Shown here: piece after piece, positions 36,533 to 45,135 of the stretch | How the letters are laid out: the number at the start of each line of letters is the position of its first letter | Position numbering within the stretch: the stretch's first letter is position 1 | NCBI RefSeq assembly: GCF_012027495.1 | Contig: NZ_SNUK01000002.1 | Coordinates: 310,001 to 374,000 of the forward strand | Length of the DNA stretch: 64,000 nt | Source: Thermococcus sp. JdF3 | GTDB lineage: Archaea > Methanobacteriota_B > Thermococci > Thermococcales > Thermococcaceae | Direction: 5' to 3' | Notes under the pieces: generated by a model | Told to the model about the DNA's origin: nothing | The model's database searches: none | What the model saw: only the letters and a program-made list of their open reading frames with translations | Position numbers and translations under genes: made by a program

Positions 36533-37876
36533 TCACCAGCCCTGAACTTTCGTCAGAACCTCGTCCGGAACCCTCCCCTCCCCTACATCCGCTATGGCCC
36601 GCTCCAGCCTGTCGAGGCCCTCCTCGAGGAGTTCCTCCTCTATCGTGAGGGGTGGCTGAATCCTCAGCACGTTGCCCTGCAGGAACGCCAGCACGAGTCC
36701 GAGCTCATATGCCCGCCAGACGACCTTCCTAGCCTCCTCATAGGCCCTCTCCTTGGTTTCCCTGTCCTTCACGAGGTCAACACCGAGCATCAAGCCGAGG
36801 CCGCGGACGTCGCCGATGAGTTCGTGCTCTTCCTTCATCTTTTCGAGTCTCCTCTTTGCGTACCTTCCGAGCCTTTCCGCCCTCCTCAGCAGGTTTTTCT
36901 CCTCGATCTCCTCGATAACGGCAAGGGCTGCCCTGCTCGCCACGGGATTGCCGCTGAGGGTGAAGGTGTGTCCAAGCGGCGGGAGGGAGTCCATGACGTC
37001 GGAGCGGCCTATTATTGCACTTATCGGAAGCCCGCCTCCGAGGGGTTTGGCTATCGTTATGACGTCGGGCGTGACCCCGAAGTGCTCTATCGCGAACCAC
37101 TTCCCAGTCCTTCCAAGCCCGCTCTGGACTTCATCAACCGCCAGGAGGATTCCATGCTCATCGAGGATCCTCTCCACCCTCCTGAAGTAGCCCTCCGGCG
37201 GAACGACCATTCCGGCATCGCCCTGTATCGGCTCGGCGAAGAGGGCGGCGGTTCCCTCGGCGTAGACTTCGCCCTCGAACTTCTCCTTCAGATAGCTTAC
37301 GCACTCCATTTTGCAGGTCTTTGGCTCCTTCCCGAAGGGACAGCGGTAGCAGTTGGGGTACGGGATGTAGTGGACACCGCTCAGCTCACCGACTATGGAG
37401 CGAACCTCGAAGTCGAGGCCGGTTATGCTCATCGCCCCGTAGGTCGCCCCGTAATAGCTCCTGAGGTAGCTGAGTATCGTTCTCCTCCGCGTGTAGGCCC
37501 TCGCGAGCTTTATTGCCCCATCGTTGGCGTCGCTCCCGCTCGTACCAAGGCTGACCTTCGGACTATCAATCGGTGCTATCTCGGCGAGCTTCTCGGCCAG
37601 GAGGAGCGGCTCAACCGGGAAGCCGTAGATAAACGTGAAGTGGATCAGTCTGTCTGCCTGCTCCTTTATCGCCTGGACAACGCGGGGGTTGTTGTGGCCG
37701 ACGTTCTGAACGGCGGCATCGCTCAGGAAGTCTATGTACTCCCTGCCCTCGATGTCCCAGACGCGGGCGTTTTCAGCACGAACGCCGACTATGGGTGCAT
37801 AGGTGACGCGCGCTGACCTCGGAAAAACCCTTGAATAGCGCTCCAGAACTTCCTCCTTGTTCGTGGGGTAGTCCAT
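36533..37876 (-). CDS. Class III aminotransferase-fold PLP enzyme, probable amino-acid racemase
   Basis: A 447-residue PLP enzyme. The cofactor lysine is in [12 protein letters not shown], the aspartate that contacts the PLP ring is in [17 protein letters not shown], and [15 protein letters not shown] binds the phosphate. Family relatives in Thermococcus and Pyrococcus act as broad amino-acid (methionine, leucine, alanine, serine) racemases, so the substrate may be a neutral amino acid; an aminotransferase role is possible. A divergent Lrp regulator 117 nt away and shared operator repeats support amino-acid control. Confidence 0.82.
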
Positions 37877-37993: not shown

Positions 37994-38455
37994 ATGCGGA
38001 CTAGTGAGCATCTTGACGAACTGGACAGGATGATACTCCACATCCTCCAGGAGGACGGGCGGGCCAGCTACTCCGAGATAGCGAGACGCCTCAAGGTGCC
38101 GGAATCGACGGTCAGGCTCAGGGTAAAGAAGCTCATCGAGAGGGGTGTTATAAGAAAGTTCTCCGCGCTCATAAATCCCTTCAAGGCGGGCTACTCGATA
38201 GTGGCTTTCATAGCGGTCGACGTTGAGCCGAGCAGGGTCAAGAAGGCCGCAGAGGAGCTGAGCAAACTGCCGGAAGTGGATGTTCTCGGAATCGCCACTG
38301 GAGCGCACGACATACTCATGCAGGTGACTGTGAGGGATTTACACGAGCTTGAGAGCTTCCTCATAGAAAAGCTGGGGAGAATAGAGGGAATAAAAAGCAC
38401 GGAAACGTCAATCCTCACGAGCGTCAGGAAGTGGGGCTACGCGAGGGTGTTTTAG
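37994..38455 (+). CDS. Lrp/AsnC-family transcription regulator
   Basis: A 153-residue regulator. The N-terminal HTH is SEIARRLKVPESTVRLRVKKL (residues about 25-45), preceded by DRMILHILQEDGRA, and the C-terminal RAM domain (AGYSIVAFIAVDVEPSRV then VLGIATGAHDILMQV) binds amino acids and forms dimers. It is divergent from the amino-acid racemase, with a repeat-bearing intergenic region, so local autoregulation and control of the racemase are likely. The stop overlaps the convergent M24 gene by four bases. Confidence 0.88.
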   Translation: MRTSEHLDELDRMILHILQEDGRASYSEIARRLKVPESTVRLRVKKLIERGVIRKFSALINPFKAGYSIVAFIAVDVEPSRVKKAAEELSKLPEVDVLGIATGAHDILMQVTVRDLHELESFLIEKLGRIEGIKSTETSILTSVRKWGYARVF

Positions 38456-39528
38456 GTCACCCTCTCCAGCCCGTTTTTCTTGACGATATAGGTGTCCTCG
38501 TGCTTTATTGCGCCCTCCGGAATCATGAGCGGCGGGTGGATGATCGTTAGAACCATGTTTTCCTGGACCTTGGTAGCCCTCTGGGGGACGACGATAGTGG
38601 TTATAGGAGGCTCCTCGATTAACAGGCCGACGCCGTGGGTGTATCCGGCTATGTAAGCTTCCCCAAAGCCCCTCTCCCTGAAGAAGTTCGCGAGTTTCTT
38701 CTCGATGGTGTTCAATGCAACGCCAACCCTCGTCTCCTCAAGTGCAATCCTGTACGCCTCCTCCTTAACCTCGATGGCTTCCCTAACCCTCTCGCCCGGC
38801 TCTCCTACAACGAAAGTCCTGGCCATGTTCGCGTAGTAGTGGTTCCAGTCGGCTCCTATAACGACGGTAACAATGCCATTTTCGGGGACCCTGAGGTCGC
38901 GGAAGGGCTCGGCGTGAGCCCTCGGCGTCGTTGAAACGTAAACCTTCGGGTCTTCACTGCCACTGAGCATGAGCTCCCTTACGACTTCAGCCGCTATCTC
39001 CAGCTCGCTGAGGCCCGGCTTTATGACCTCCTCGGCGACCTTCATGCCCCGCCCTGCGATTTTTCCAGCTTTCCTGATGTTGTCCAGCTCCCACTCGTCC
39101 TTTATCATTCTCAGCCCCATCGTGAGGTCGAGGATGTCCACTATCTCGACCGTCGGGTTGAGGCGCTCGAATATCTTGAGGAATATCAGATAGGCGTCGC
39201 GCTCTACCCCGAACTCAAGGCCGACCCGTTCCATGCCGTTCCTGTGGATCCAGCTCACGACGCCAGCCATCAGGTCCTCTACCTTCTGAAACTCCACGAC
39301 GTTTTCAATCCAGCTTTTCTCCCTGAAAAGTTCCGCTTCACCTTTGACGACGTAAACCACCGGCTCTCCCTCGGCTGGGATGAGGAGACTCGGCCGGAGC
39401 CACTTGGTTCCGGTGAAGTATATGAAGGTGGAGAGGGTTCTTATGACGGCCCCATCAATGTCGTTCTCCCTCAGGAGTTCCTGAAAGCGCTCAACTCTTT
39501 TTCTGAATATCTCCCTATCCCCTCGCAT
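38452..39528 (-). CDS. M24-family (creatinase/aminopeptidase fold) protein with degenerate metal site
   Basis: A 358-residue pita-bread-fold protein. The N-terminal creatinase-type domain spans residues 1-125. Active M24 peptidases bind two metals through D, D, H, E and E. Here the two aspartates of the DxGAxYxGYxSDxTRTF motif are replaced (VIGADWNHYYANMARTF), the histidine of THGVG is kept, the first glutamate is lost (VLTIIHPPLMIP) and the last is kept (KHEDTYIV). Probable loss of metal peptidase activity; it may resemble metal-free creatinase-type enzymes or be non-catalytic. Third gene of an operon with DUF438 and cupin genes. Confidence 0.78.
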   Translation of the reverse strand: MRGDREIFRKRVERFQELLRENDIDGAVIRTLSTFIYFTGTKWLRPSLLIPAEGEPVVYVVKGEAELFREKSWIENVVEFQKVEDLMAGVVSWIHRNGMERVGLEFGVERDAYLIFLKIFERLNPTVEIVDILDLTMGLRMIKDEWELDNIRKAGKIAGRGMKVAEEVIKPGLSELEIAAEVVRELMLSGSEDPKVYVSTTPRAHAEPFRDLRVPENGIVTVVIGADWNHYYANMARTFVVGEPGERVREAIEVKEEAYRIALEETRVGVALNTIEKKLANFFRERGFGEAYIAGYTHGVGLLIEEPPITTIVVPQRATKVQENMVLTIIHPPLMIPEGAIKHEDTYIVKKNGLERVT

Positions 39529-39840
39529 CTACATCACCTTGATCACGAGGAATGCCATGTCAAGGCTTCCCTCGTTGGAAACCGCATGGGGGACTTCCTT
39601 CGGCAGGTATACGGCGGTTCCCTTCTTAACCTCTACCCTCTCCTCGCCAACCTCCACAGTACCTCTCCCTTTAATGACGTAAATGAAGGCATCGACAGGT
39701 GTCGTGTGTCTCTTCAGGCTCTCCCCCGGCTTCAGGGTTATGTAAAATATCTGGGCGCTTTTCTCATCCATCAGCTTCCTCACATCCACTCCGTGTGGGT
39801 TGTCCACCCGCGGGGCGTCCTCAACTCTGACAACGATCAT
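39529..39840 (-). CDS. Small cupin-domain protein
   Basis: A 103-residue single cupin. Motif 1 is GESLKRHTTPVDAFIYVIKG and motif 2 GTAVYLPKEVPHAVSN, with histidines that could bind a metal. Single-domain cupins bind small ligands or act as oxygenases and isomerases; no substrate is evident. It starts one base after the DUF438 stop and ends one base before the M24 gene, so all three are one operon. Confidence 0.8.
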   Translation of the reverse strand: MIVVRVEDAPRVDNPHGVDVRKLMDEKSAQIFYITLKPGESLKRHTTPVDAFIYVIKGRGTVEVGEERVEVKKGTAVYLPKEVPHAVSNEGSLDMAFLVIKVM

Positions 39841-39841
39841 C

Positions 39842-41182
39842 TCAATCCCTCCAGTCGAGCAGTCTCTTCTCGCCCTCGATCTTTTTATAGGGTGCGATGT
39901 CCATCGTCATCTCCAGCGTCCCCAGGTAGTTTCCGTTCTTGTCGAAGAGGGGCACGTACTTTATGTAAACGTACTTGGGGCCAAGCCTGAGCCAGAAGGT
40001 TGCCTCCTTCTTCCTGCCCTCCTTGAAGGCCTTGAGGATTTTGTTCACAATGTGAACGCTCTTCGGCGGGTGGCAGAGCTGGACGGGCCTCCCGAGCACA
40101 GAGGGAGTCCTCGCGAATATCCTCTCACCGGGCGAGAAGAACCTCACCCTGTCGTCCTTATCGATGAAGGTCACATCAACCGGTAGGGCCTCGAATATCG
40201 CCTTCAACTCCTCGACGCTGACGTAGCCCGTTCCAAGGTCTATGTCGCCCCCACGTTTGAGCTGGGACTTATCGAACTCCAGCGGCTGGCCCTTTAAGGC
40301 CTGCTGTACCTCCTTGGGGAGGCCGAGGAGCTGCTCAACGCTCAGCTCTGGGTTAATTTCCCACGGATGAAGCGGCTTAACGTCCTTTCCAGGATCCCAT
40401 TCCGGCGGGTTCACCTTGTAATAGCCGAACTCGTCCTCCTGCTGGCGGATAGCTTTCCATTCCCCGTCAGTGAGAAGGGCCTTCAGCGTGGGGTAGTAGA
40501 TGTTGTTCTCCCTGAAGACCATGTCGCTCAGGGCGAAGGCCGCTTCACCGGCTTTGGTCTTAAACGTCTCAACGAACTCCTCCCAGGGCATCTCATCACG
40601 CTTTGATAGGAGAACAGCGAGATGTTTTATCATAAACCTAATTTCGTCGTGCTTCGTCCAGAGAACTGTTGCTATCGCGGTCAGACCTCTGCGCTCAATG
40701 TAGGGGAAGGTGAGCATCTCCTCCCTGTTGTAGTGGGTGAAGCCAACCTTCCTGAGATTATTCACTATCTCCTCCAGAACACCGAGGATTTCCTTTCTCA
40801 TGCGCTCGTCCTTCGTTGTCGCGAGGGTTCTCGCGTAGAGGTTAAGCATCTCCGCATCCTTCAGTATCTCCTTGTTCTCAAGGTAGAGCGTCTTGAGCGG
40901 ATGCCCGTCGGGAAGGTCTCTCTCCTCAAGTTCCTCCGTTCCGGCAACCGCTTCCCTGAACAGCTCGACGTGCAGGTCACACATCTTCGCTATATCCTTG
41001 GCTGAAACCCCCTCCTTCACGAGCTCCTGCTCTATGATTGGAATCTCAAGGGGCGATATACCGCTCAAAACTTGGCGGAATTCTTCCTTCAGCTTATTAA
41101 CGTCCTCTCCCTCATGAATTCTGAGGAGGAGCTTCTTCAGCTGCTCCTTCTTGTATTCGCGATTGTTCAGTAACTCAGTCAT
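39842..41182 (-). CDS. DUF438 protein with hemerythrin-like and PAS-like regions
   Basis: A 446-residue protein. The N-terminal DUF438 helices (residues 5-75, KEQLKKLLLRIHEGED) are followed by a hemerythrin-like helical domain with several His and Glu residues (HVELFREAV, FTHYNREEMLTFPYIE, WTKHDEIRFMIKHL) and a C-terminal PAS-like region (DVTFIDKDDRVRFFS then GTLEMTMDIAPYKK). Di-iron hemerythrin proteins in this group are linked to repair of iron centres after NO or oxidative damage. Expression is probably controlled by the palindrome at 41196. ATG 41182 follows GGTGGTAAAG. Confidence 0.82.
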   Translation of the reverse strand: MTELLNNREYKKEQLKKLLLRIHEGEDVNKLKEEFRQVLSGISPLEIPIIEQELVKEGVSAKDIAKMCDLHVELFREAVAGTEELEERDLPDGHPLKTLYLENKEILKDAEMLNLYARTLATTKDERMRKEILGVLEEIVNNLRKVGFTHYNREEMLTFPYIERRGLTAIATVLWTKHDEIRFMIKHLAVLLSKRDEMPWEEFVETFKTKAGEAAFALSDMVFRENNIYYPTLKALLTDGEWKAIRQQEDEFGYYKVNPPEWDPGKDVKPLHPWEINPELSVEQLLGLPKEVQQALKGQPLEFDKSQLKRGGDIDLGTGYVSVEELKAIFEALPVDVTFIDKDDRVRFFSPGERIFARTPSVLGRPVQLCHPPKSVHIVNKILKAFKEGRKKEATFWLRLGPKYVYIKYVPLFDKNGNYLGTLEMTMDIAPYKKIEGEKRLLDWRD

Positions 41183-41195
41183 CTTTACCACCTTC

Positions 41196-41209
41196 ATGAC
41201 AAGTGTCAT
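41196..41209. promoter_or_regulatory. Palindromic operator of the DUF438-cupin-M24 operon
   Basis: ATGACA and TGTCAT flank AG (14 bp, perfect). It lies at the expected transcription start, 14 nt before the DUF438 start codon and just after a minus-strand TATA-like GCTTAAAAGT (41217-41226). The same 14-mer occurs before hcp. Confidence 0.65.
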
Positions 41210-41258
41210 ACTGAGTACTTTTAAGCGTTTCTGGGCAGATTTGCCCAACAATCTTTAT

Positions 41259-41272
41259 ATGTCACATGTCAT
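41259..41272. promoter_or_regulatory. Palindromic operator of the DUF2249-DUF1858 gene
   Basis: ATGTCA CA TGTCAT, one mismatch from the ATGACAnnTGTCAT consensus. It begins inside the TATA-like CTTTATATG (41253-41261), so a bound protein would block the promoter of the gene at 41294. Confidence 0.58.
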
Positions 41273-41293: not shown

Positions 41294-41773
41294 ATGATGC
41301 TTGACGTTCGTGGATTAGAGCCCCCTCAGCCGGCGGTTATGATAATCCAGTCCCTCGGAAAGCTTCAGGTGGGAGAAACGCTTGAAGTCATAGGCGACAA
41401 GCCCTTCGTTGACATGCTCGGGAAGCTTGAGGAAGCCGGTTATCGGGTTGAACTGAAGGAAGTTGGCGGGGCATTCGTGCTTAGGATAACCAAGACCGAG
41501 AACTCCAAGGAGCTTACGATGGAAGCCAAAGAGTGCGACGATAAGCTGGACAAGATAACCGAGGAAACCAACGTGGCCAGGCTCCTCAAAGCTTACCCGG
41601 AATCCCTCAAAATACTGGTGAAGTACGGCTTCTCGCCCCTTGAGAATCCCGAGATGAGAAAGACACTCGCGAGGACGATAACCATGAGGCAGGCAAAGAA
41701 GCTCCTCGGGATGAGCGATGAGAAGTTCGAAGAGATGATGGAAGAACTGAAAGGGCTGGAAGAAGGTAGATAG
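41294..41773 (+). CDS. DUF2249-DUF1858 two-domain protein
   Basis: A 159-residue protein. Residues 1-75 match DUF2249, a TusA-like fold (LDVRGLEPPQPAVMIIQSLG), but the sulfur-carrying cysteine of TusA is replaced, as is common in DUF2249. Residues 90-150 match DUF1858 (TNVARLLKAYPESLKILVKY then SPLENPEMRKTLARTITMRQ), the helical domain found at the N-terminus of iron-centre repair proteins of the RIC/ScdA type. It is divergent from the DUF438 operon and both carry the shared palindrome, so a common role in nitrosative or redox stress is likely. Confidence 0.78.
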   Translation: MMLDVRGLEPPQPAVMIIQSLGKLQVGETLEVIGDKPFVDMLGKLEEAGYRVELKEVGGAFVLRITKTENSKELTMEAKECDDKLDKITEETNVARLLKAYPESLKILVKYGFSPLENPEMRKTLARTITMRQAKKLLGMSDEKFEEMMEELKGLEEGR

Positions 41774-41890: not shown

Positions 41891-42685
41891 TCAATATGGT
41901 TCAGCCCCTGTTTGAGCTTTAAAGTATTCCCCGGCCCTCTTGATTAAGAATTCGTTTTTAATTTTCTTTCCAATACGCTTGAAGATCAACGTGGTTACCT
42001 CTCCGCCGAACCATGCTTTGTCTTCAATTAGCTCTCGGTAGCTCTCTTCATCGGTTAAATCGCTTTCTCTTACTGAAACAAGTATTTTATATCTATCCAA
42101 TCTCTTGATTAGGACATACTCTTCCTCCTCCCTTCCGGGTCTTTCAATCAGCTCGTAGAGACCATTCTCCAAGCCTAAGAGTTCTTTCTCCACAATAGTA
42201 ACGCCAGAGGGAATGACTTCAAGCTTTCCCCGTTTTACGGTTTCGACCAACCATTCGTACAGGAGGAACTGGTTGTTTTCTTCAAAGCCTGCATCTCTGA
42301 GGTCGTGGTCGTCCGTGTAACCACAGATGAGAACCGCCCCAACCCTCATCAGCTTTCCGAGGAACTTCATAAGTTCGGGGCTCAGGACGAACAGCCACCT
42401 GCCGGTGGAGACTCCAATCTGGAGGAGCGTCATGTTCTCCTTTGAGTACGTTTCAACCTCAAGCCAGTCAAAGGAATCTCCCTCAGTGGTTTTCAGCCCG
42501 TAGTGCAGTTCTCCCACTGCAACCAGCCTAAATCCCCTCATATCAAAGATGAACTTCAGGTGCTCTTCTCGTCTTTCCCGCTGGTACGCGAGTTCACGAG
42601 TGTACTTGAACTCGCGCGAGAGCTTATCAAGCACTTCCTTCCAGGATTTATCAAACACGGCAACGGTATAATAAGTAGTCCCCAT
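41891..42685 (-). CDS. Hypothetical protein, AT-richer than neighbours
   Basis: A 264-residue soluble protein with no recognised domain. N-terminal helices (SWKEVLDKLSREFKYTRELA) precede mixed regions (LQIGVSTGRWLFVLSPELMK) and a Glu/Arg-rich middle. Codon use is more AT-rich than in the flanking genes, suggesting recent acquisition. The start ATG 42685 follows GGGGGAAGTG; the ATG at 42730 lacks a site. No relation to its neighbours is evident. Confidence 0.55.
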   Translation of the reverse strand: MGTTYYTVAVFDKSWKEVLDKLSREFKYTRELAYQRERREEHLKFIFDMRGFRLVAVGELHYGLKTTEGDSFDWLEVETYSKENMTLLQIGVSTGRWLFVLSPELMKFLGKLMRVGAVLICGYTDDHDLRDAGFEENNQFLLYEWLVETVKRGKLEVIPSGVTIVEKELLGLENGLYELIERPGREEEEYVLIKRLDRYKILVSVRESDLTDEESYRELIEDKAWFGGEVTTLIFKRIGKKIKNEFLIKRAGEYFKAQTGAEPY

Positions 42686-42749
42686 TTCACTTCCCCCATG
42701 ATTCATTACATAATGAAAATAAAGAAACATGTCCAGTCGAATTCCGAGG

Positions 42750-43208: not shown

Positions 43209-44576
43209 TTAATCAAGCTCCTCAGCGAGGGGCGAACCCTCTTCGACCTTTGTTCCCCTGCTCAGCATGTCCCTGAGGTCGGCCTCGGGATCACCGATAA
43301 GCCTGAGGTCAAACTGCCTCCGGAGGACTTCAAACACGTTGGGGGTCAGGAACTCAGGTGGTTTTGGTCCGATGTAGATACCCTTGATTCCGAGGTAGAG
43401 GAGCGAGTAGAGTATCGCTATGGCCTTCTGCTCCATCCAGCTCAGGACTATGCTTACCGGCAGGGAGTTCACGTCGGTTCCGAGCTCGTTCGCGAGAGCA
43501 ATTGCAATCTCAATTATCGAATAGACGTTGTTGCACTGACCGAAGTCGAGGAACCTCGGAATGCCCTCGATGGTGCCGTAGTCCCGCGCGTTGTAGCGGA
43601 ACTTTCCGCAGGCCGCTGAGAGTATGAGTGCATCCTTGGGAATGAGCTCAGTGAGCCTCTCGTAGTAGCCCATGCCCTTGTGCGGCGTATCACAGCCGCC
43701 CACCACGAAGATGTGCCTTATTTTGCCCTCCCGAATTAGCTCTATCAGTCTGTCCTTCATGGCCAGGACGTTGGTGTGGTGGAAGCCTGTGAGAAGCTTT
43801 CCGCCGTCGTAAGCCTGCATCTTCGGCGTCTCAAGGGCGCGCTTTATGAGCGGCTCGAAGTTGTAGTCCTCGATGTGGGGAACCCCCTCAAGGCCCGCTA
43901 TTCCGACGGTGAAGATTCTATCCTGATACGCCTTCGTCGGCTGCTGGACACAGTTGCTGGTTCCGAGTATAACGCCCGGGAACTCCGCGAACTCCTTCTT
44001 CTGATAGAGCCACGAGCCTCCCCAGTTGCCGTAGAGGGCTTTGAACTTCCTCAGCTCTGGGTAAGCGTGAGCTGGAAACATCTCGGCGTGGGTGTAGACC
44101 TTGAGCTCCTCCTCAAGGCCCATCTCTTCAATCTGCCTGAGGAGTTCGTAGAGGGCCTTGTAGCTGTGGCCGGTAACGACTATACCCTTCCCCTCCGCAG
44201 TTCCGGTTGGGACTTCAACCGGCTCAGGCCTTCCGAAGGTTTCAACGTAAGCTTTGTCGAGGAGCTTCATGGCCTCCAGGTGTACCCGACCGTTCTCGAG
44301 GATAAGCTCAAGGAAGCGGTTCTTGTCGAAGTTCACGTTTGTTAGAGTTGAGTAGAGCGCCTCCGCCAGGAAGTGGCCTATCTTTGGGTCGTCGTAGCCG
44401 ACCTCAAGGGCGTGGTGGTAGTAGGCCGCGGTTCCCTTTATACCGTACAGCAGGGCCTCCTGGAGCGAGTTGAGGTCCGGGTCTTTACCGCAGACTCCCC
44501 TTATCGTACATCCTCCGGCGAGGCTCATCGAGCACTGGTTGCAGAGCATGTCCAACCTCTCAGGTACCTTTATCAT
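43209..44576 (-). CDS. hcp: Hydroxylamine reductase / hybrid cluster protein
   Basis: A 455-residue hybrid cluster protein. The N-terminal [4Fe-4S] ligands are C12, C15, C23 and C29 (LCNQCSMSLAGGCTIRGVC). Hybrid cluster ligands are all visible: TGHSYK, THAEMFP, GTSNCVQQ, VGGCDTPHKG, SAACGKF, FGQCNN, and the E-x-K of SWMEQKA. Such proteins reduce hydroxylamine and, in bacteria, detoxify NO or make S-nitrosothiols. ATG 44576 follows GGAGGGATTGAAG; the TTG at 44582 would add two residues. A perfect palindrome lies 18 nt upstream. Confidence 0.93.
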   Translation of the reverse strand: MIKVPERLDMLCNQCSMSLAGGCTIRGVCGKDPDLNSLQEALLYGIKGTAAYYHHALEVGYDDPKIGHFLAEALYSTLTNVNFDKNRFLELILENGRVHLEAMKLLDKAYVETFGRPEPVEVPTGTAEGKGIVVTGHSYKALYELLRQIEEMGLEEELKVYTHAEMFPAHAYPELRKFKALYGNWGGSWLYQKKEFAEFPGVILGTSNCVQQPTKAYQDRIFTVGIAGLEGVPHIEDYNFEPLIKRALETPKMQAYDGGKLLTGFHHTNVLAMKDRLIELIREGKIRHIFVVGGCDTPHKGMGYYERLTELIPKDALILSAACGKFRYNARDYGTIEGIPRFLDFGQCNNVYSIIEIAIALANELGTDVNSLPVSIVLSWMEQKAIAILYSLLYLGIKGIYIGPKPPEFLTPNVFEVLRRQFDLRLIGDPEADLRDMLSRGTKVEEGSPLAEELD

Positions 44577-44593
44577 CTTCAATCCCTCCTTTT

Positions 44594-44607
44594 ATGACAA
44601 GTGTCAT
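44594..44607. promoter_or_regulatory. Palindromic operator of hcp
   Basis: ATGACA AG TGTCAT, identical to the site at 41196, between ATG 44576 and a minus-strand TATA-like CTATAATC near 44616. Position at the transcription start suits repression. Confidence 0.65.
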
Positions 44608-44670: not shown

Positions 44671-44690
44671 TATATGACTTATGTCATATA
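44671..44690. promoter_or_regulatory. Extended palindrome before the HTH regulator gene
   Basis: TATATGAC and GTCATATA, perfect 8-bp arms around TTAT. The inner 14-mer ATGACTTATGTCAT differs from consensus by one base. It lies about 30 bp upstream of a TATA-like CTTAAATATTC (44717-44727) for the regulator gene, and 90 bp upstream of hcp. Confidence 0.6.
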
Positions 44691-44748: not shown

Positions 44749-45135
44749 ATGAAGACTAATGCGTTTGAAGTGGCCTCGCGATACGTGTACCCGTCACTCA
44801 GGCGGAGGCTCGTTGAGATACTCTATGAAAACGGCCTGAAGCAGACGAAGATAGCTGAGCTCCTCCACATCACCCAGTCGGCCGTTTCCCGCTATCTTCG
44901 GATGGACAGAGGCGCGTTGATGGATGTCTCCCAGTTTCCAGACATCGATAACGAGCTTCGTTCATTTGCCGACGAGATCATTAAGAAAAAACCGAGTGAG
45001 TATGAGATACACAGGAGGCTCGTGGAAATCTCCGTCGAGATGCTTGGAAAGGGCTACGTCTGCCAGTTCCACTCGAAAATCGACCCCGAAGTGAATCCCG
45101 CGGAATGCAACGTATGCCTTGAACTTTTCGGCTGA
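44749..45135 (+). CDS. HTH transcription regulator with C-terminal cysteine cluster
   Basis: A 128-residue regulator. The HTH spans residues about 31-52 (KQTKIAELLHITQSAVSRYL). The C-terminus has C105-x2-H108-x11-C120-x2-C123, a possible zinc or iron-sulfur site that could sense NO or redox state. It lies divergent from hcp and next to four copies of a shared palindrome, and is the obvious candidate for the protein that binds them. It resembles the predicted archaeal XRE-type regulators (COG2522-like). The function is inference. Confidence 0.75.
   Translation: MKTNAFEVASRYVYPSLRRRLVEILYENGLKQTKIAELLHITQSAVSRYLRMDRGALMDVSQFPDIDNELRSFADEIIKKKPSEYEIHRRLVEISVEMLGKGYVCQFHSKIDPEVNPAECNVCLELFG

Follow-up and report, generated by a model that had tools for sequence, protein, structure and literature searches.

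We describe a clade of archaeal proteins with the prolidase fold (M24B) in which the canonical metal ligands have been lost and a different set of residues at the ligand positions is invariant. Its member in Thermococcus sp. JdF3 is encoded within the 64,000-nucleotide stretch of DNA that was analysed (the window, to whose first letter all positions refer). With middling confidence, we read the clade as a probable single-metal enzyme other than a prolidase that acts on a small-molecule substrate and is part of a nitrosative- or oxidative-stress operon under probable repression by the 44749-45135 regulator. Because annotation labels the members of this clade prolidases, an archaeal enzyme of a distinct kind may be concealed behind an unproven name, and the single-metal reading, if true, would show how a two-metal peptidase fold became a one-metal site. 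Through its linkage to genes for DUF438-hemerythrin, hybrid cluster and flavodiiron proteins, the clade also offers a testable archaeal nitrosative-stress module in the genetically tractable Thermococcus, whose operator is defined and for which there is a candidate regulator.

A search of mainly open-access literature returned no publication on the function of the clade. A 2009 paper (PMC2814137) names PH1902 of P. horikoshii, which has two relatives in P. furiosus, as another putative X-Pro dipeptidase, and PH1902 is probably a member of the clade, since the identity levels given there fit it. The group was already seen at that time; the altered ligands, the spread of the family and the link to a stress module were not found in print within the literature searched.

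A prolidase fold with a rewired active site

The protein matches the Pfam families Peptidase_M24 (4.7e-34) and Creatinase_N (4e-16), and its AlphaFold model, computed with 24 aligned sequences as input, has a mean pLDDT of 91.1. The predicted fold joins a pita-bread C-terminal domain to a creatinase-type N-domain and resembles prolidases over nearly its whole length. Its top structural match is a P. furiosus protein, 78% identical, deposited in the Protein Data Bank as 9KW9 ('proline dipeptidase ... complexed with Co') and 9KWA ('... with Mn') and released on 2025-12-10, for which the literature search found neither an activity report nor a paper. Structural Z scores are 36.8 for creatinase 1CHM, 36.2 for DoeA 6YO9 and 35-37 for prolidases, and the N-domains of Spt16 are also among the matches (Z 33-34). 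The NCBIfam model for archaeal PepQ scores 146.9 bits, under its cut-off of 630, and the same genome holds three further M24 proteins above the Pfam cut-off, canonical ones included.

We mapped the metal ligands by alignment to P. furiosus prolidase 1PV9, by MAFFT alignment with the genome's own PepQ and by profile-profile comparison. All three place Val223, Asn234, His298, His331 and Glu344 at the prolidase ligands Asp209, Asp220, His284, Glu313 and Glu327, in place of the D, D, H, E, E set of M24B prolidases, and the second conserved prolidase histidine (His291) is likewise absent, with Glu305 at its position (Table 1). The pairing of Glu313 with His331 requires a one-residue insertion ahead of the histidine. 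The original prediction, that both aspartates are replaced and that only the histidine and the last glutamate remain of the five ligands, is thereby upheld, and alignment with prolidases did not recover the five ligands at shifted positions; the prediction was also right that the first glutamate is gone, but it overlooked both the invariant histidine in its place and the solved structure of the orthologue.

Table 1 Features of the M24 gene, its active site and the surrounding gene cluster, with positions in the window.
Feature	Position	Strand	Basis or remark
M24B (prolidase-fold) protein, rewired active site, 358 aa	38452..39528	-	ORF, Pfam, alignments
Glu344, ligand Glu327, kept	38497..38499	-	
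His331 for ligand Glu313, invariant	38536..38538	-	
Glu305 for conserved His291, invariant	38614..38616	-	
His298, ligand His284, kept	38635..38637	-	
Asn234 for ligand Asp220, invariant	38827..38829	-	
Val223 for ligand Asp209	38860..38862	-	
His205, equivalent of PepQ His192, kept (PRxHxEP motif)	38914..38916	-	
Cupin, same operon, missing in some relatives	39529..39840	-	
DUF438-hemerythrin-PAS protein, first operon gene	39842..41182	-	Listed ORF extends to TTG at 41251
Operator palindrome TGACAAGTGTCA, exact	41197..41208	.	14 bases upstream of likely DUF438 start ATG at 41182
Near copy of palindrome, before TusA-DUF1858 gene	41260..41271	.	
TusA-DUF1858 protein, divergent	41294..41773	+	
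Hybrid cluster protein	43209..44582	-	TIGR01703, 649 bits, cut-off 360.8
Operator palindrome TGACAAGTGTCA, exact, before hybrid cluster protein gene	44595..44606	.	
Near copy of palindrome, before regulator gene	44675..44686	.	
Candidate regulator, HTH and C-terminal CxxH...CxxC	44749..45135	+	

The ligand positions are spaced by 11, 64 and 14 residues in two canonical controls. Within the family the first interval is 11 in 78 of the 79 rows scanned (one row was unmatched by the expression), followed by 63-65 and then by 13 or 14. The distance from His331 to Glu344 equals the canonical 14 in 23 of the 78 matched rows, on inspection the ones falling outside the Thermococcaceae-containing branch, and is 13 in the other 55; the rows with 14 support His331 as the replacement of Glu313. 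In established prolidase structures, Asp209 serves one metal only, and Asp220, His284, Glu313 and Glu327 serve the other, which implies that one metal site has been lost and that the remainder would be an altered version of the second. As Asn234, His298, His331 and Glu344 are invariant, occupy the positions of one prolidase metal and keep its spacing almost unchanged, the site is, on the evidence of the alignments, rewired and not decayed. One bound metal is more likely than none, judging by the same residues.

Conservation and distribution of the family

From 77 orthologues collected, we assessed conservation on the 59 that are full-length and distinct, leaving out partial sequences and one gene (L070) split by about 1.9 kb. 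Asn234, His298, His331 and Glu344 are present in 59/59, as is Glu305, and position 223, the former Asp209, is always valine and never aspartate (0/59). Positions that never vary are 202, 203, 205, 207, 208, 227, 231, 234, 298, 305, 306, 308, 311, 317, 331, 333, 342, 344 and 346, and the strictly conserved residues cluster in motifs belonging to the former active-site cleft (KWLRP, PRxHxEP, HGxGL..EE, IHxP and KxED/NT). Among distant archaeal members, 27 rows reach the ligand positions (2 of them repeating L021/L022); Asn234, His331 and Glu344 are found in all 27 and His298 in 26, the sole exception being a gene in pieces. The Thermococcus protein carries every hallmark of the clade, namely the Asn/His/His/Glu set and the KWLRP, PRxHxEP and GYxHxxGLxxEE motifs. 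Read from sequence, this pattern marks an enzyme that was redirected, not one in decay.

The family was found in 24 of 229 genomes from the class of a Desulfurococcales locus and in 6 of 227 from the phylum of a Njordarchaeota locus. It is sharply set apart by score in six genomes, with at least 594 bits for family members against at most 99 bits for ordinary M24 matches. In a 49-row tree, from which L154 and L155 were removed as repeats of L022 and L021, a branch of length 1.53 and 99/100 support separates the 42 family rows from the seven outgroup rows, a placement to be read with caution given the long branches among the latter. By this tree, the rewired family is a single clade.

Broken copies of the gene occur in L070, L071, L158 and L159, where it is split by about 1.9 kb, interrupted by an in-frame stop or spread over two frames. 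One genome has a second member (L073:14993-16066) that is 78% identical to the first, lies 7.8 kb from it and sits behind a DUF438-like fragment. Another member (56%) is on a contig labelled 'bacterium' (L019), together with pyruvate kinase-like and hydrolase-like genes, and may reflect lateral transfer or a mixed bin.

Linkage to a putative stress module

The M24 gene closes a gapless run of three, in which the stop of the DUF438-hemerythrin-PAS gene is 1 base from the start of the cupin gene, whose stop abuts the M24 start. In the Thermococcaceae loci fetched, DUF438 is usually ahead of M24, often without the cupin, the TusA-DUF1858 gene is divergent, and genes for the hybrid cluster protein and the small regulator are near M24. 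The cluster in the window also encodes a 279-residue protein (41891-42730, minus strand) that has no Pfam or NCBIfam match and has relatives in several other Thermococcaceae clusters.

Parts of this arrangement recur in other archaeal lineages. A second archaeal class has three loci in which DUF438 adjoins M24 (L134 showing only its PAS part), and we found the orders DUF438-M24 in L143 and L134, DUF438-regulator-M24 in L146 and regulator-M24 in L020 and L031. M24 is followed by a flavodiiron protein gene, named by eye, in L144 and L022/L154, which are two separately placed lineages. Among the 28 distant loci, L134, L143, L144, L146 and L154 have such a neighbour, and the other 23, several of them on short contigs, have no DUF438, regulator or flavodiiron gene among their labelled neighbours. 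Known activities of hybrid cluster proteins and flavodiiron proteins are the reduction of NO or of oxygen. For the former, a recent abstract indicates NO reductase activity (PMC10210160).

Co-occurrence was counted in 74 of 94 family genomes, those with a completeness of 90% or more and a contamination of no more than 5%, with relatedness ignored in all three tests. M24 and DUF438 occur together in 60 genomes, M24 only in 5, DUF438 only in 1 and neither in 8 (Fisher 7e-7); for M24 and the regulator, the corresponding numbers are 61, 4, 1 and 8 (Fisher 3e-7). Co-occurrence with the hybrid cluster protein is weak (42, 23, 2 and 7; Fisher p 0.026).

In four genomes without a linked DUF438 gene, M24 and a neighbouring SDR dehydrogenase gene lie on one strand, with M24 coming second in L085, L106 and L107 and first in L109, where peroxiredoxin-like, rubrerythrin-like and flavodiiron-like genes, named by eye, are also near. 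A substrate common to the two proteins is a lead only. A Parageobacillus plasmid (L095:592-2080) likewise has a cupin gene ahead of an ordinary M24 gene, beside hydantoinase and pruA genes.

A shared operator and a candidate regulator

The genes of the cluster share a palindrome. Exact copies of TGACAnnTGTCA occur only twice in the 2.14 Mb genome, both in the stress cluster (at 41197 and 44595). If up to one mismatch is allowed, there are 18 matches genome-wide against 15 for a reversed control, per strand, and four in the window against 0.89 expected, a number that none of 100 shuffles reached. We rejected the palindrome as a general genome motif because both exact copies are confined to the cluster; one-mismatch matches across the genome are about as frequent as those of the reversed control. 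The original prediction that the M24 gene belongs to a DUF438 operon under a shared palindrome is thus borne out by the tight packing of the three genes and by the exact copy ahead of the first of them.

Across loci, the operator with up to one mismatch precedes TusA in 29/29, the hybrid cluster protein in 15/16 and the regulator in 18/31, against 0/61 for control genes (Lrp, racemase, UraA, hydrogenase and cupin); these locus counts probably include the same genome twice, for example in L016/L092 and L015/L067. The 4/38 counted before DUF438 is an undercount, because the listed ORF begins at an upstream TTG, which shifts the searched stretch too far upstream, and the interval common to TusA and DUF438 was entered under TusA. 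Two Desulfurococcales loci carry the operator directly before M24 and before the regulator. In the 259 kb of distant loci, the only exact copy precedes the DUF438-regulator-M24 run of L146, and the other 27 of the 28 loci have none.

Operator copies closely follow TATA-like stretches, as seen by eye, a position that would suit repression. The motif CxxH...CxxC is present in 34/34 distinct homologues of the regulator that reach the C-terminus, and the 44749-45135 protein may control the whole cluster as a metal or Fe-S regulator; the linkage of the two suggests that it binds the operator.

Two further genes flank M24 in many Thermococcus loci: a leucine/methionine racemase (36533-37876, minus strand; NF045634, 881 bits against a cut-off of 800) and, divergent from it, an Lrp-type regulator (37994-38455, plus strand) whose gene overlaps the M24 stop by 4 bases. 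We do not favour them as functional partners of M24, since they lack the operator (0/11 each) and are not beside M24 in genera other than Thermococcus.

Proposed function and alternatives

In the mechanism that we propose, the metal site with Asp209 would have been dropped and the other prolidase site rebuilt, with Asn234, His298, His331 and Glu344 probably holding a single divalent metal (Fe2+, Mn2+ or Co2+). For acid/base roles the candidates are His205 and Glu305; for anion binding, they are Arg203 and the basic KWLRP loop (Lys42, Arg45). The substrate of the enzyme during nitrosative or oxidative stress is probably a small molecule, which may be anionic, and expression of the operon is probably repressed by the 44749-45135 regulator via TGACAnnTGTCA, with both the signal and the pairing presumed. 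A role outside ordinary peptide turnover, as originally predicted, is the likelier reading from the gene context. Against a stress enzyme speak the depositors' name of proline dipeptidase, the genomes in which M24 has no DUF438 and no regulator and adjoins a dehydrogenase gene instead, the weak co-occurrence with the hybrid cluster protein, and the lack of DUF438 and operator in most of the distant loci. A more specific version, which we put forward tentatively, would liken the 2-His/Glu/Asn site to that of 2-His-1-carboxylate mononuclear iron enzymes and have the clade destroy or repair a product of NO or oxygen damage, in an archaeal stress module under a regulator that reads NO with a CxxH...CxxC Fe-S cluster or iron; no description of a stress-module regulator with this motif was found in the literature searched.

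Having lost three ligands and kept His205 and several glutamates invariant, the protein might instead be a metal-free hydrolase of the creatinase or ectoine-hydrolase type, acting through His205 with Glu207, Glu305 or Glu344, and its predicted fold is equally near to creatinase, DoeA and prolidases. We consider this unlikely: it is not evident why such an enzyme would require an invariant Asn/His/His/Glu set at near-canonical metal-site spacing, DoeA has different residues at all five ligand positions, and orthologue crystals contain Co or Mn by their PDB titles, so that the metal independence suggested in the original prediction is not well supported. Those titles and the match to archaeal PepQ point to a Co- or Mn-dependent dipeptidase with an unusual site, as does the 2009 paper on the putative X-Pro dipeptidase PH1902 (PMC2814137). 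This seems improbable to us given a score far under the PepQ cut-off, the replacement of both aspartates, Glu313 and His291 in 59/59 orthologues, and the canonical M24 proteins elsewhere in the genome; the name may rest on similarity in both sources, and no activity report was found in the literature searched. Most doubtful is a protein that, like the Spt16 N-domain, would bind or sense without catalysis, such as an Fe-NO sensor or a partner of the DUF438 protein: the Spt16 structural matches and the tight pairing with the DUF438-hemerythrin-PAS gene would fit it, but strict conservation centred on the motifs of the old active-site cleft is usual for enzymes. The single-metal enzyme remains our preferred reading.

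Comparison with known M24 systems

With PepQ and other M24B Xaa-Pro peptidases (1PV9, 1WY2), the protein has the two-domain fold in common over the full length at about 30% identity. It keeps the equivalents of His192, His284 and Glu327, whereas Asp209, Asp220, Glu313 and His291 are replaced by Val, Asn, His and Glu. It also belongs to another operon, and its N-domain has the KWLRP loop where ordinary members have a different one. In ordinary prolidases, specificity is shaped by the equivalent loop of the partner subunit, and PDB titles for the Lactococcus enzyme list the mutants D36S and H38S, which we take to lie in the N-domain loop matching KWLRP. The P. furiosus orthologue 9KW9/9KWA, 78% identical, carries the same replaced residues; at the sequence level nothing sets it apart, and only its deposited name departs from a non-prolidase reading.

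Ectoine hydrolase DoeA/EutD (6TWJ, 6TWK, 6YO9) has the M24 fold (Z about 36) and has also lost the canonical ligands, yet its ligand positions are Glu, Pro, Tyr, Met and Thr by HMMER alignment to 1WY2, against Val, Asn, His, His and Glu here. A true doeA locus has eutB, eutC and doeB, and no ectoine genes were among the identified neighbours of M24. For creatinase (1CHM, 7YTO), the fold match (Z 36.5-36.8) is tied with that of prolidases; its catalytic residues are His232 with Glu262 and Glu358, and His205 presumably occupies the position of its catalytic histidine. The DMSP lyase DddP is an M24 relative with a new reaction. Unlike the protein described here, DddP keeps binuclear ligands (Asp295, Asp297, Asp307, His371, Glu406 and Glu421; PMC4108388).
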